Origin: a virus
DNA: 22,658 nt
IMG/VR virus record: IMGVR_UViG_3300017746_000183
Span: 1 to 22,658 of that record
Reading direction: 5' to 3' (one strand)
In this document: piece by piece, positions 10,625 through 17,034 of the stretch
Layout of the letters: each line of letters opens with the position of its first letter
Position numbering within the stretch: the first letter of the stretch is position 1
Notes under the pieces: model-generated
Databases searched by the model: none
The model's input: the letters and a program-made list of their open reading frames with translations, nothing else
Told to the model about the DNA's origin: nothing
Position numbers and translations under genes: made by a program

Positions 10625-11253
10625 CTTACCCAACTCTAAAAACAGATGACGGGTGGGAATTATTTCCTTTATTTGCTAAAGCAGTTTCTACTCACCACGT
10701 AGATGAAACTATATGTAAGGAACTTCAAGATCTTGAAGTGAAATGCAATTGGAATGAAGACGATGGAACTGATGGTTGTAAAGGAGCAGTTAGTACAGAG
10801 AAAAATGTTCTTGACATGAACCCTGTTCTTAAGCAAAAACTCCATAGCATTGTTCATGACTATGTTCAGATAATCATGGGATACATTTGTGATGTTCAAT
10901 TTACAACTTCATGGTTTGCTAGAACATACGAAGATGGATTCTGTGAAGAACATATGCATAGCAATGCTTGGTTCAGTGGTATCATATACTATGGTGAGTA
11001 TGAAAAAGATACTGCACCAATTCAATTTACAGATTCTAATCCACATAGCGTCTGTGTAAAAGTATCTGAATTTAATTTCTTTAATGCATTTGCTTGGAAC
11101 ATTCAACCTGAACATGCATTGATTGTTATGTTTCCTAGTGAACTAAGACATAAAGTATTAAAAAACAAATCCCAGTGGACACGTAATGCTTTGGCATTTA
11201 ACGTTATGCCTAAGGGTGATGTCGGTATTCAGGACAGCGTGTTCCAATACTAG
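10621..11253 (+). CDS. Putative 2-oxoglutarate/Fe(II)-dependent oxygenase
   Basis: This is a 210-residue protein whose C-terminal half fits the double-stranded beta-helix of 2OG-Fe(II) oxygenases of the TIGR02466-like group common in cyanophages. EEHMHSNAWFSGIIYY (109-124) offers H111/H113 as metal ligand and the SG-IYY strand. MFPSELRHKV (170-179) gives the distal H177, and TRNALAFN (187-194) gives R188 for 2-oxoglutarate. The usual HxD is replaced by an H-x-H pair, as in this subgroup, so which residue completes the iron site is uncertain. Substrate unknown: a protein, nucleobase or small molecule are all possible. The ATGA overlap with gp46 places it at the end of the recombination operon, directly before a strong terminator. 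Compare homologs with care, because phage members are divergent. Confidence 0.75.
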   Translation: MTYPTLKTDDGWELFPLFAKAVSTHHVDETICKELQDLEVKCNWNEDDGTDGCKGAVSTEKNVLDMNPVLKQKLHSIVHDYVQIIMGYICDVQFTTSWFARTYEDGFCEEHMHSNAWFSGIIYYGEYEKDTAPIQFTDSNPHSVCVKVSEFNFFNAFAWNIQPEHALIVMFPSELRHKVLKNKSQWTRNALAFNVMPKGDVGIQDSVFQY

Positions 11254-11263
11254 AAGTGGCATA

Positions 11264-11289
11264 GGGGGGTCTAACGACCCCCTTTTTTT
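11264..11289 (+). terminator. Rho-independent terminator after the oxygenase gene
   Basis: GGGGGTC (11265-11271) pairs perfectly with GACCCCC (11276-11282) around TAAC, followed by seven T. It ends the gp46-oxygenase transcript. A TATACT box begins four bases after the T run. Confidence 0.92.
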
Positions 11290-11292
11290 GTG

Positions 11293-11298
11293 TATACT
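11293..11298 (+). promoter_or_regulatory. -10-like TATACT box before the VWA/metallopeptidase gene
   Basis: TATACT lies 23 bases before ATG 11322, just after a terminator, where a new promoter is needed. No -35 hexamer is visible at 16-18 bases. The same hexamer recurs at similar distance before the genes at 13521, 19590 and 20328. Confidence 0.42.
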
Positions 11299-11321
11299 GG
11301 TTGCATAGAAAGAAAGACACC

Positions 11322-13457
11322 ATGCAAACACAAGAGATCAAAGGCAAACTTGCTAAGTTACTTGCTACTGAAAACCTTTTGGTTGAGCATCGTTCTGTGA
11401 ATACAGCATCTTTCGATGTAGATAATCGTATATTGACTCTACCAAAATGGGATAAAGCATCTAGTACAGTCTATGATCTTTTGGTAGGACATGAAGTTGG
11501 ACATGCTTTATATACTCCTATGTGGGATGGATTCAATTGCCCTAAAGATTATGTGAACGTGACTGAAGATGCGCGTATTGAAAAACTTATGAAGCGTCGT
11601 TATCCTGGTCTTCGTAAATGTTTCTTCAATGGATATCGCGAACTCAATGACGATGATTTTTTTGGTATTGCTGAAGAAAATATTGATAGTTTAAAATTGA
11701 TTGATCGTATCAATTTATATTTTAAAATTGGTGTTGCTGAAGTTGTTATTCATTTCAATGCAGAAGAAAAAATTCTGGTAGACAAAACTGCAAACACAGA
11801 GACTTTTGATGAAGCAGTAAAAGTTGCTGAAGAGATCTGGGAATATTCTAAAGAACAGCAGCAAGATCTTGAGAACCTTGCAGATATTCCTCAGTCTGGT
11901 GGTGATGGTAGTTCTGGATCATCCGAAAGTCAAAGTGTCAATGACGAAGAATCTGGTGAGGAAGGTGGTGAAGAAGTCATGACACACGAAGAGATGCTGG
12001 AAGAAGCACAGCGCAGAGAAAACGAGAATGGTGCTGCACCAGCTGGTGGTGATATTTCTTCTTCTGATACTCAAAATAATTTTGATCAGCAATCACAGAG
12101 TCTTAGTAGAATTTCTTATTCAAGAAATGTATATGTTGACATTCCTACCTTGGATGCTTCTGATTATGTTGTTGATTGGAATGTAATTCATAATTGGATT
12201 GACAATCAGAAAGAGGGTCTTGACGTAGATGGTTTTTCGTGGGTTGATTTAGAGTATAGAAAATTTAAAAAGTCTGTTCAGAAAGAAGTAAACTATCTTG
12301 TAAAAGAATTTGAATGTAAGAAAGCAGCTGACGCATATGCTCGTCAGCAAACCTCACGTACTGGAGTTCTCAATACTAGTATCTTACATACGTACAAACA
12401 CAATGACGACTTGTTCAAGAAAGTAACAATTATTCCTGAAGGTAAAAATCATGGTCTTCTTTTTATTCTTGATTGGTCTGGTTCCATGAACACCACGTTG
12501 CTTTCTACTTTAAAGCAACTAATGACTCTCTGTATGTTCTGTAAAAAAGTACATATCCCTTTTGAAGTTTATGCATTTACTAATGAGTGGATTGGTGCTG
12601 AACGCTCAATGGAAAATCAAGTTGGAGAATTTTTTCCAAAACTAATTACTGAAAGACTTATTAAAAATGAAGTCTATGTAAGCAAGCAGTACTTTCGCAT
12701 GATGAATATTTTTTCATCTCGTACTAACAGCAAAAACTGGGAACGTCAATGCCTTAACATATGGCGTGAAGTATATTCATTACAATATTATGTTGGTTAT
12801 CCACCAACAATTGGTATGAGTCTCTCTGGAACTCCTCTCAATGAATCTATCCTTGTTATGAAGTCAATCATTCCTGGGTTTAAGAAGACTACTGGAGTCA
12901 GTAATGTTAATGTTTGTATTTTGACTGATGGAGAATCTTGTGGTTCTATGTATGGTCATGAGTCTACATATGATGATGATAAAGAAATGATTTTTGCACG
13001 ACGTTTAGATTCTACTAGTGTTACTCTTCGCGATCGTAACTTGGGTTGTACATACAGCAAACTAGAGTCTTGGGATGAGCAAACAAACGTCTTCATTGAA
13101 AACTTAAAGGAGACGCATCCATCTGTTAACATAATTGGTATCCGTCTTCTTGAAGGTGGTGGTGGTCTTGCCAGTTTCTATCGCCGCTATTGCAACGATT
13201 CTGTTGATGGACTTGATAAATTGTATAGAGATTGGAAAAAAACTAAATCAGTTATTCTTCCGAATCCTACTTCTTATGATGCTTTGTATGTTATTTCTGG
13301 TAAATCTAGTGTGCGTACTGAATTAGAGGAAGAGTCAACACTTGATGTTGATGCTGGTTCTTCTAAAACTCAAGTCCGTGCTGCCTTCAAAAAACTACTG
13401 AAGCAAAAGCAAAACAACAAAGATATCTTGAACCACTTCATCAGTCAGATTGCATAG
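11322..13457 (+). CDS. HExxH metallopeptidase-like/VWA-domain protein (partner of MoxR ATPase)
   Basis: This 711-residue protein has three parts. The N-terminal region has a zincin motif HEVGH at 57-61 (YDLLVGHEVGHALYTP), with EDARIEKLM from residue 82 as the likely third-ligand segment. An acidic, Ser/Gly-rich linker spans about 190-260. The C-terminal von Willebrand A domain has MIDAS residues D384-W-S386-G-S388 and D536 (ILTDGES). Cyanophage homologs are usually called 'peptidase' or VWA protein. Proteins with this layout typically work with a MoxR-family AAA+ ATPase, which here is the very next gene. I start at ATG 11322 because the TTG at 11301 precedes the likely transcription start. 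The target is unknown. It may be a chaperone-like remodeller or protease, and resemblance to CobT of cobaltochelatase is limited to the VWA part. Confidence 0.83.
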   Translation: MQTQEIKGKLAKLLATENLLVEHRSVNTASFDVDNRILTLPKWDKASSTVYDLLVGHEVGHALYTPMWDGFNCPKDYVNVTEDARIEKLMKRRYPGLRKCFFNGYRELNDDDFFGIAEENIDSLKLIDRINLYFKIGVAEVVIHFNAEEKILVDKTANTETFDEAVKVAEEIWEYSKEQQQDLENLADIPQSGGDGSSGSSESQSVNDEESGEEGGEEVMTHEEMLEEAQRRENENGAAPAGGDISSSDTQNNFDQQSQSLSRISYSRNVYVDIPTLDASDYVVDWNVIHNWIDNQKEGLDVDGFSWVDLEYRKFKKSVQKEVNYLVKEFECKKAADAYARQQTSRTGVLNTSILHTYKHNDDLFKKVTIIPEGKNHGLLFILDWSGSMNTTLLSTLKQLMTLCMFCKKVHIPFEVYAFTNEWIGAERSMENQVGEFFPKLITERLIKNEVYVSKQYFRMMNIFSSRTNSKNWERQCLNIWREVYSLQYYVGYPPTIGMSLSGTPLNESILVMKSIIPGFKKTTGVSNVNVCILTDGESCGSMYGHESTYDDDKEMIFARRLDSTSVTLRDRNLGCTYSKLESWDEQTNVFIENLKETHPSVNIIGIRLLEGGGGLASFYRRYCNDSVDGLDKLYRDWKKTKSVILPNPTSYDALYVISGKSSVRTELEEESTLDVDAGSSKTQVRAAFKKLLKQKQNNKDILNHFISQIA

Positions 13458-13462
13458 TGTCC

Positions 13463-13493
13463 ACTCTGCCCTCGACTCTGCCCCACTCTGCCC
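13463..13493 (+). repeat. Three direct repeats of ACTCTGCCC before the MoxR gene
   Basis: ACTCTGCCC occurs at 13463-13471, 13475-13483 and 13485-13493, at start-to-start distances of 12 and 10 bases, filling most of the 63-base intergenic region. The last copy directly abuts the TATACT at 13494. The C-rich repeats stand out from the A+T-rich surroundings and occupy the -11 to -45 region, as an activator or repressor site would. Confidence 0.85.
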
Positions 13494-13499
13494 TATACT
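13494..13499 (+). promoter_or_regulatory. -10-like TATACT box before the MoxR gene
   Basis: TATACT is 21 bases before ATG 13521. The nearest -35 candidate is TCGACT (13472-13477, 4 of 6, spacer 16), which overlaps the ACTCTGCCC repeats. This suggests a weak promoter needing an activator bound to the repeats. Confidence 0.45.
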
Positions 13500-13520
13500 T
13501 ACTTCATACGAAACAAACCG

Positions 13521-14615
13521 ATGCCTGCCAAGTCTGATTTAACCACTTCTCAAATTACTTCTTATCTTGCCGAGACCTTTGGTTCTGACATTAATACTGA
13601 TCACGTTCGTGCTGCAGCAACCTATTTCTCTGTATCATATCCTACTGCCGTCAAGCGTCTCTGTCAGTACAATGTTGCTCGCGGCAAATGGAACCTGACC
13701 ATTGAAGAAACACGTGACCAGTTGGAAACTCAGTTTCCTGATCAGGAAGAAATGAACCTCATCCCACTTAAAGATAATAGCTTTGTCCCGTTCGGTAACT
13801 TTACTGATCTGAAGAAAATTATTTCTTCTCGTCTTTTCTATCCTACATTCATTACTGGTATGTCTGGTAATGGTAAAACTTTCTCTGTAGAGCAAGCGTG
13901 TGCTGCTCTAGGACGTGAGTTGATTCGTGTAAACATTACAATCGAAACTGATGAAGATGATCTTATTGGTGGTTTCCGTCTTGTCGATGGGTCAACTGTT
14001 TGGCATAATGGACCTGTCATTGAAGCACTCGAACGTGGAGCAATCCTGCTACTCGATGAAGTTGACCTTGCTTCCAACAAAATTCTATGCCTTCAATCCA
14101 TCCTTGAAGGTAAAGGTGTGTTCCTGAAGAAGACAGGTCGCTATGTGAGACCTGCTGCTGGTTTCAATGTCATTGCTACTGCTAACACCAAGGGTAAGGG
14201 TTCTGATGATGGTCGCTTTATTGGTACTAACGTATTGAATGAAGCATTCTTGGAACGCTTTGCTCTCACCTTTGAGCAAGAGTATCCCACTCCCAAAATT
14301 GAGACTAAAATTCTTGAAAAAATTGGTGCGAATATTGGGGTGACAGATCCTGAATTCTGTGCTAAACTTGCTGACTGGGCTGACGTTATTCGCAAGACGT
14401 TTGCTGATGGTGGCGTGGATGAAATTATTTCTACTCGCCGCTTGTCTCATATCATTCGTGCTTATTCCATTTGGGGCGACCGATACAAGGCAATCAAAGT
14501 TTGTGTCAATAGATTTGATGAAGAAACAAAAACTCTCTTCCTTGATGTCTATACCAAACTTGATGAGAAAGTAGAAATGGAGGAAAGCGATGAGAGACCA
14601 TACTATGACCAGTGA
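13521..14615 (+). CDS. MoxR/CobS-type AAA+ ATPase
   Basis: This 364-residue AAA+ ATPase has Walker A GMSGNGKT at 113-120, Walker B ILLLDE at 175-180, sensor-1 N222 in IATANTKGKG, and the EAFLERF segment (241-247) with the likely arginine finger. TRRLSHIIRAY follows as the sensor-2 region. The first ~60 residues form a helical region (AATYFSVSYPTAVKRL) that could be a small DNA- or partner-binding domain. Cyanophage homologs are annotated CobS, the cobaltochelatase ATPase subunit. The motifs only prove membership of the MoxR clade, and no CobN is nearby. Its partner is very probably the VWA protein encoded just upstream. It has its own promoter region with triple repeats and overlaps the next small gene by 26 bases. 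Confidence 0.88.
   Translation: MPAKSDLTTSQITSYLAETFGSDINTDHVRAAATYFSVSYPTAVKRLCQYNVARGKWNLTIEETRDQLETQFPDQEEMNLIPLKDNSFVPFGNFTDLKKIISSRLFYPTFITGMSGNGKTFSVEQACAALGRELIRVNITIETDEDDLIGGFRLVDGSTVWHNGPVIEALERGAILLLDEVDLASNKILCLQSILEGKGVFLKKTGRYVRPAAGFNVIATANTKGKGSDDGRFIGTNVLNEAFLERFALTFEQEYPTPKIETKILEKIGANIGVTDPEFCAKLADWADVIRKTFADGGVDEIISTRRLSHIIRAYSIWGDRYKAIKVCVNRFDEETKTLFLDVYTKLDEKVEMEESDERPYYDQ
14579..14583 (+). promoter_or_regulatory. Ribosome-binding site GGAGG deciding the start at 14590
   Basis: GGAGG lies 6 bases before ATG 14590, inside the end of the MoxR gene. It favours this start over the in-frame ATG 14605, for which the spacing would be 21. Confidence 0.6.
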
Positions 14616-16673: not shown

Positions 16674-16874
16674 ATGGAAATCAGTAAAGCCGATCTCATT
16701 CATCACAGAATCCAAGCAGTCCTTCGAGAGAATGATTTTCAGGATGATGATCTTAAATACTTAGGATTCAATGAAGACAAAGGAGAGCATGAGTACAAAA
16801 TCAATGGACAATATGTCGTCCTTGCATCACAAATCGAAGACTTTGAAGAAGTCGAAAGTGAAGACGACACCTGA
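16674..16874 (+). CDS. Small acidic protein of unknown function
   Basis: This 66-residue ORF starts at ATG 16674, ten bases after the gp44 stop. An N-terminal helix (DLIHHRIQAVLRENDFQDDDLKYLGF) is followed by a strand pair (HEYKINGQYVVLASQ) and a very acidic end (DFEEVESEDDT). I do not recognise a family. No clear ribosome site is seen. It overlaps the next GTG start by 17 bases. It could be a clamp-loader-associated or DNA-mimic-like protein, but only its acidity hints at that. Confidence 0.62.
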   Translation: MEISKADLIHHRIQAVLRENDFQDDDLKYLGFNEDKGEHEYKINGQYVVLASQIEDFEEVESEDDT

Positions 16875-17034
16875 AAATGTAGCAGAAGCAAATGAAGCAT
16901 TGTTTCATGCTACAATGAACCTACCCCATGCTGCTGCTCATTGTGGAATGACAGAGCGTGAAATGAAAATGATCTTTCGTGAATACCTTAAATACCATGC
17001 CCCAGACATTGAAGTCTTTAAAGACGCCACTTAG
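16858..17034 (+). CDS. Small helix-turn-helix-like protein, GTG start
   Basis: This 58-residue ORF is taken from GTG 16858 (KTTPENVAEANEALF). A frame extension to ATG 16771 would run almost entirely inside the previous gene and is Ser/Lys-rich without family resemblance. TTG 16843 is an alternative. The core NLPHAAAHCGMTEREMKMIF (about residues 22-41) has the A-x3-G-(M)-T spacing of a helix-turn-helix, and similar small proteins occur near Dam genes in cyanophages as far as I recall. DNA binding is therefore plausible, and a regulatory role for the Dam gene it overlaps is inference. Confidence 0.6.
   Translation: MKTTPENVAEANEALFHATMNLPHAAAHCGMTEREMKMIFREYLKYHAPDIEVFKDAT

Follow-up and report, generated by a model that had tools for sequence, protein, structure and literature searches.

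A phased triple repeat adjoining the -10 box before cobS recurs at fixed spacing in cyanophages and probably marks one subtype of a wider promoter class

The window, by which we mean the whole stretch of 22,658 bases analyzed here, carries the gene order peptidase, cobS, sliding clamp, and clamp loader found in T4-like cyanophages such as Sf-CH11 and S-CAM3. Its cobS gene (positions 13521 to 14615, plus strand, as for all features of the window given below) encodes a CobS/MoxR-like AAA_5 ATPase of 364 amino acids and PHROG 249, which is annotated in relatives as CobS, as “porphyrin biosynthesis,” or as MoxR. Ahead of this gene lie three exact copies of ACTCTGCCC, at 13463 to 13471, 13475 to 13483, and 13485 to 13493, and the third is followed directly by the -10 box TATACT (13494 to 13499). 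These positions confirm an earlier description made from the letters alone (here the sequence-only reading), namely, three perfect 9-base copies with periods of 12 and 10 that end at TATACT; the span of -45 to -11 given there has to be corrected to about -43 to -13, with the -10 box placed at -12 to -7. A putative start site and a short leader (TTACTTCATACG...) occupy 13500 to 13520 and are kept in the nearest relatives. On the other side, a weak match to the upstream arm of the promoter class described below (right half tAGTGTCC versus AACTGTCC) covers 13438 to 13462 and overlaps the 3′ end and the stop codon of the upstream gene. That gene, a “peptidase” of 718 amino acids, is itself preceded by a promoter of the same class (11237 to 11298), with a terminator hairpin and no triple in its spacer. 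For the peptidase open reading frame (ORF), ATG 11322 looks a likelier start than the listed TTG 11301 (window positions 11237 to 11322).

The triple is the only arrangement of its kind in the window and is not due to chance: no other 9-mer is present three times within 40 bp, and none reached this in 200 Markov-1 resamples of the window. As the sequence-only reading had stated, the repeats are G+C rich in an A+T-rich spacer (68% for the repeats, compared with 39% for the whole window and 33% between the -10 box and the ATG). That reading had also suggested looking for the repeats elsewhere in this genome, but within the 22,658 bases no further copy of ACTCTGCCC was found with up to one mismatch.

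Its second suggestion, a search upstream of the same gene in other cyanophages, was more productive, as the triple stands before cobS in several of them, e.g., Sf-CH11 and S-CAM3. All 27 repeat letters of the window are identical in Sf-CH11, S-CAM3, S-CAM4, and S-SZBM1, whereas the four-fold degenerate sites of cobS identical to those of the window amount to 54%, 64%, 48%, and 44%, respectively; Sf-FR1 shares 25 of the 27 letters. Over the six phages, 25/27 repeat columns are invariant at cobS versus 16/83 four-fold sites. This comparison indicates that the repeats at cobS are under purifying selection, with the reservation that the test phages were picked partly for carrying the triple: S-CAM4, S-SZBM1, and Sf-FR1 were chosen for bearing it, and Sf-CH11 and S-CAM3 are also top ranked by their flanking coding sequence. 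Two other phages that rank at the top by the same measure are S-RIM32, which has a terminator in the place of the triple, and ACG-2014i, in which the triple is degenerate. In the cobS lineage the flanks and the leader have diverged and the repeats have not, which points to selection.

Beyond this lineage, a strict pattern (up to three mismatches) matched once each in Sf-CH11, S-CAM3, S-CAM4, S-SZBM1, and Sf-FR1 among 14 isolate genomes and in none of the other 9, and the reversed control pattern matched in none of the 14. Looser triples are found in ACG-2014i (at cobS), Syn9 (before gp61 and before the helicase gp75), S-SCSM1, and Sf-CH3. A consensus search of phage records returned 28 records with one place each, all of them Synechococcus phages or cyanophages. 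When IMG/VR was scanned with two ACTCTGCCC copies at a 12-base period, at least 119 stretches were retrieved; among the matches listed, 74 have the promoter form (75 promoter-type loci, from which L042 was left out), and in 44 the words stand elsewhere, several of the latter being in-frame-looking 12-base repeats. The aligned promoter forms read ...AACTGTCC-ACTCTGCCC-CTG-ACTCTGCCC-C-ACTCTGCCC-TATAAT.... A relaxed collection comprises at least 103 distinct promoter-form triples in phage DNA, with the window merged into the row of a duplicate locus. This collection is biased, since each locus entered it through an exact match to part of the element (two copies; copy 3 with AACTGTCC; or arm, -10 box, and leader). 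At the 42 distinct sites chosen only by AACTGTCC, copy 3, and TATA, copy 1 is exact in 30 and copy 2 in 25.

The collected triples are held to a narrow geometry. From copy 1 to the -10 box the distance is 31 bp in 90 of the 103, 32 bp in 11, 33 bp in one, and 34 bp in one, and the window lies within the 31 to 32 bp typical of the subtype. Periods of 12 and 10 directly adjoining the -10 box occur in 81/103, with 11+11, as well as 11+10 plus one extra base, among the others. The right arm agrees with AACTGTCC at six or more of eight positions in 91/103, and the start codon follows the first base of the -10 box by 25 to 40 nt in 94 of the 96 triples with an ORF of at least 30 amino acids (27 nt in the window). 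The ends are thus fixed and the middle copy is movable by one base, as expected if the copies must share one helix face; the same-face phasing proposed by the sequence-only reading is therefore plausible, with a span of 31 to 32 bp in 101/103 and a middle copy shifting between 11+11 and 12+10. That reading had named repeats confined to this isolate, with neither copy number nor spacing conserved, as its refutation. Copy number and spacing are conserved in other cyanophages, with the -10 box coupled to the repeats, and this refutation therefore fails. In its triple form the element is conserved, under selection, and fixed in its geometry.

The tie to the MoxR gene as such, which the sequence-only reading had drawn, found no support, because the element stands before 25 clusters of downstream proteins. 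CobS accounts for 54 of the 96 proteins, and the other clusters are mostly small proteins of unknown function, together with the family of the 718-amino-acid peptidase and a helicase; the protein scan covered 20 of the 25 cluster representatives.

The triple belongs to a wider promoter class whose members share an imperfect inverted repeat with AACTGTCC at its end, a spacer of 30 to 31 bp, a σ70-type -10 box TATAMT, and a short leader (consensus gtGtGaCAGTT..cgAACTGTCa, N30-31, TATAaTA..taCATcAaC), with the start codon about 29 nt past TATAMT. Upstream of cobS, phages without the triple keep AACTGTCC or a near form of it, the 30 to 31 bp, and TATAMT. When matches to AACTGTCC (at least 7/8) were counted before 2,214 TATAMT sites, spacers of 30, 31, and 32 bp were found 12, 7, and 4 times, with 69 matches over 75 offsets, and the reversed AACTGTCC control gave no peak at 30 to 32 bp before the same sites. 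The exact class pattern yielded 21 matches in 11 of the 14 genomes (control matches, 0), and an iterated position-specific scoring matrix (PSSM), run over 2.5 Mb that comprised 12 complete genomes, portions of two more, and the window, retrieved 246 sites, a few of the weakest of which are surely chance; shuffled DNA gave 4 at an equal cutoff. The window is matched at 13438 to 13499 with a spacer of 31 and a weak arm (tAGTGTCC), scoring 24.6 versus a shuffled maximum of 20.2. In Syn9 and its relatives the class is repeated, often ahead of small ORFs. Two annotations deserve mention in this context: the start annotated for Syn9 gp61, 44804, falls within the promoter element, and ATG 44855 is the likelier one (L124, 44796 to 44855), and a minus-strand “hypothetical protein” of S-CAM3 has been annotated across the promoter (L123, 2979 to 3095). 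We also observed that the leaders past the -10 box fall into a few recurring strings, CATCAAC, TTCAGTTGAAAC, AAGGTAATCAA, and TTCATACGAAAC, as if they were interchangeable modules (L139 to L257).

Within this class the spacer varies. A scan by AACTGTCC, TATAAT, and CATCAAC alone gave 34 distinct spacers, of which 5 are triples and many others hairpins. Of 78 nonredundant spacers without a triple, 40 fold at -5 kcal/mol or better, some of them with U tracts. Since hairpin stems confound the hot spot of CCC, such spacers were omitted from the count, and among the 38 non-triple, non-hairpin spacers that remain, 10 have a CCC starting at offset 18 from the arm, a number reached in 0 of 500 shuffles; this is the position of the CCC of copy 2, also in the window. 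Compared in register with the triple consensus, nonredundant 31-bp spacers agree at 10.65 of 31 positions (shuffles, 8.93, standard deviation 0.36; next rotation, 10.46), but 30-bp spacers show no in-register resemblance (8.82 versus 8.49 in shuffles, standard deviation 0.42). The triple thus looks like the regular version of a phased, C-rich pattern that is otherwise looser, which these comparisons bear out only in part, and the idea that it is the mere consensus of all class spacers is likewise partly supported, by the 31-bp spacers and not by the 30-bp ones. Class spacers may differ greatly in sequence, and the triple is therefore not required for the promoter as such. The clearest case is a pair of loci, L316 with a triple and L335 with a hairpin, that are identical at 1,408 of 1,500 bases upstream and 925 of 991 downstream (∼94%). 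They do not differ at all in the 38 bases that lead up to the spacer or in the stretch that runs from TATAAT past the ATG, yet their spacers are wholly different. This is a natural module swap, triple for hairpin or the reverse, of almost equal length at one place.

What might read the triple was approached from several sides. The best -35 element, TCGACT, matches at 4/6 positions, lies inside the repeats at 16 bp from TATACT, and makes 9/12 overall, where shuffles average 0.5 such sites. RNA structure was rejected, as the RNA of the triple does not fold and folding of the region is no stronger than that of shuffles (z = -0.12); no terminator was detected in the triple, and by eye the G-rich strand has too few G runs for a G-quadruplex. 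Cyanobacteria are not known to have Rho, which bears on Rho loading. The microprotein encoded at 16858 to 17034, put forward by the sequence-only reading as a binder, has no Pfam match and occurs in 12/12 genomes, with the triple or without it (5 strict-triple, 5 non-triple, and 2 degenerate), and was dropped as a specific binder. Among 594 ORFs of S-CAM4, none is present in all five triple genomes and in no non-triple genome, so that no binder is in sight; a weak candidate, ORF 384, is found in 4/5 triple and 0/5 non-triple genomes but is absent from the triple-bearing S-SZBM1. A host origin of the element was rejected as well, since the pair occurs in 72 cellular contigs with 117 matches, none of which is then followed by TAYANT. 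These 12-base tandem repeats of ACTCTGCCC in cellular contigs, whose 117 matches exceed a rough hand expectation of about 7, are found in L358, L363, L374, L392, L407, and others, several of the contigs being cyanobacterial.

Taken together, we consider it probable that the triple is the spacer of one promoter subtype, in which phased repeats replace the -35 element as the site of a putative factor, within a class used many times per T4-like cyanophage genome. The positions taken up by the inverted repeat and the phased spacer are those at which activators of σ70 polymerase act. In this model the -10 box and a factor bound to the inverted repeat (about -45 to -65) would together hold host RNA polymerase, and the three ACTCTGCCC units, phased and reaching from -43 to -13, would take the part of a -35 element. 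As at activator-dependent promoters that carry direct repeats, such as those of the PhoB and MotA types, the triple might be read by a further putative DNA-binding protein, of phage or host, or by a remodelled polymerase, and both activation and repression are possible. More tentatively, and with the odds somewhat against it, these promoters may be built from interchangeable operator cassettes of 30 to 31 bp, set between an inverted repeat and a -10 box that are both fixed, with triple ACTCTGCCC as one type, for a putative trimeric or three-site factor, so that recombination swaps would rewire gene control in one step.

Three other explanations were weighed. It is rather unlikely that the spacer merely keeps length and tolerates any sequence, the 30 to 31 bp from arm to -10 box being what matters and the repeats, like the hairpins, serving to end or block upstream transcription or to shape the DNA rather than to bind a factor. 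The exact triple-hairpin exchange between L316 and L335 and the hairpins in many class spacers, some with U tracts, fit this idea, yet the letters should then drift, and the three copies are instead kept in distant phages and ahead of different genes; nor does the unfolded RNA, with no terminator and a region indistinguishable from shuffles, suit an insulator. A mobile promoter cassette, spread by recombination via the short AACTGTCC and TATAAT flanks with its letters not read, is a little more doubtful still. It would account for the 25 downstream gene clusters, for the clean module exchange at cobS, and for identical strings from -10 box to leader that recur ahead of other genes, but not for repeats that stay intact while the flanks and leader of the cobS lineage diverge, and the element of the window lacks the stem-loop of the promoter/stem-loop (PeSL) cassettes whose reported spread it would resemble. 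That the triple is a functionless short tandem repeat due to chance or replication slippage is refuted by its conservation and is hardly credible: ACTCTGCCC repeats do occur outside promoters (44 of the IMG/VR loci listed, from at least 119, and the 117 matches in 72 genome contigs), but the promoter form keeps unequal 12+10 periods (81/103) and stands at a constant distance from the -10 box, and 0/117 cellular matches are followed by a TAYANT box.

The preferred reading, a promoter subtype with a factor site in its spacer, can be set beside known systems. A novel element described by Doron et al. (ISME J, 2016) is said to control early genes of Syn9 and to be conserved in T4-like cyanophages. 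The present class likewise occurs in Syn9 and T4-like cyanophages, and we take the wider class to be probably this “early element.” Sites of the PhoB/OmpR type are direct repeats with a period of about 11 bp that replace the -35 element beside the -10 box. The triple likewise consists of direct repeats that adjoin the -10 box and would replace a -35 element, but it has another word and three copies, and the pair was never in promoter form in the 72 cellular contigs. T4 middle promoters (MotA box and AsiA) have a σ70 -10 box without a proper -35 element and an upstream word about 10 to 12 bp away. The present element is alike in outline, with a -10 box and an upstream word, but has three direct copies and an inverted repeat where the T4 promoters have a single MotA box.

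According to a passage in PMC5780444, T4-like cyanophages are without T4-like middle promoters and motA and/or asiA. The PeSL cassettes of T4-like phages (Arbiol 2010, Comeau 2014) are described, as cited in PMC4503421, as a promoter with a stem-loop before shuffled genes, and those of T-even phages are said to spread by recombination. Hairpin members of the present class resemble them as a compact promoter with a stem-loop, but here the hairpin or triple forms part of the promoter itself, flanked by the inverted repeat and the -10 box; the triple promoter of the window has no such stem-loop, showing no terminator and folding as shuffles do. In the literature searched, we found no mention of the triple and no occurrence of the motif word CTCTGCCC together with cyanophage.

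Few marine viruses are as common as T4-like cyanophages, which reportedly do without the T4 middle-promoter machinery, and this gives interest to how their transcription is ordered. A strictly spaced element before many genes, together with natural triple-hairpin swaps at the same gene, offers a ready reporter experiment, and the triple itself could serve as a bait sequence for finding the missing regulator.
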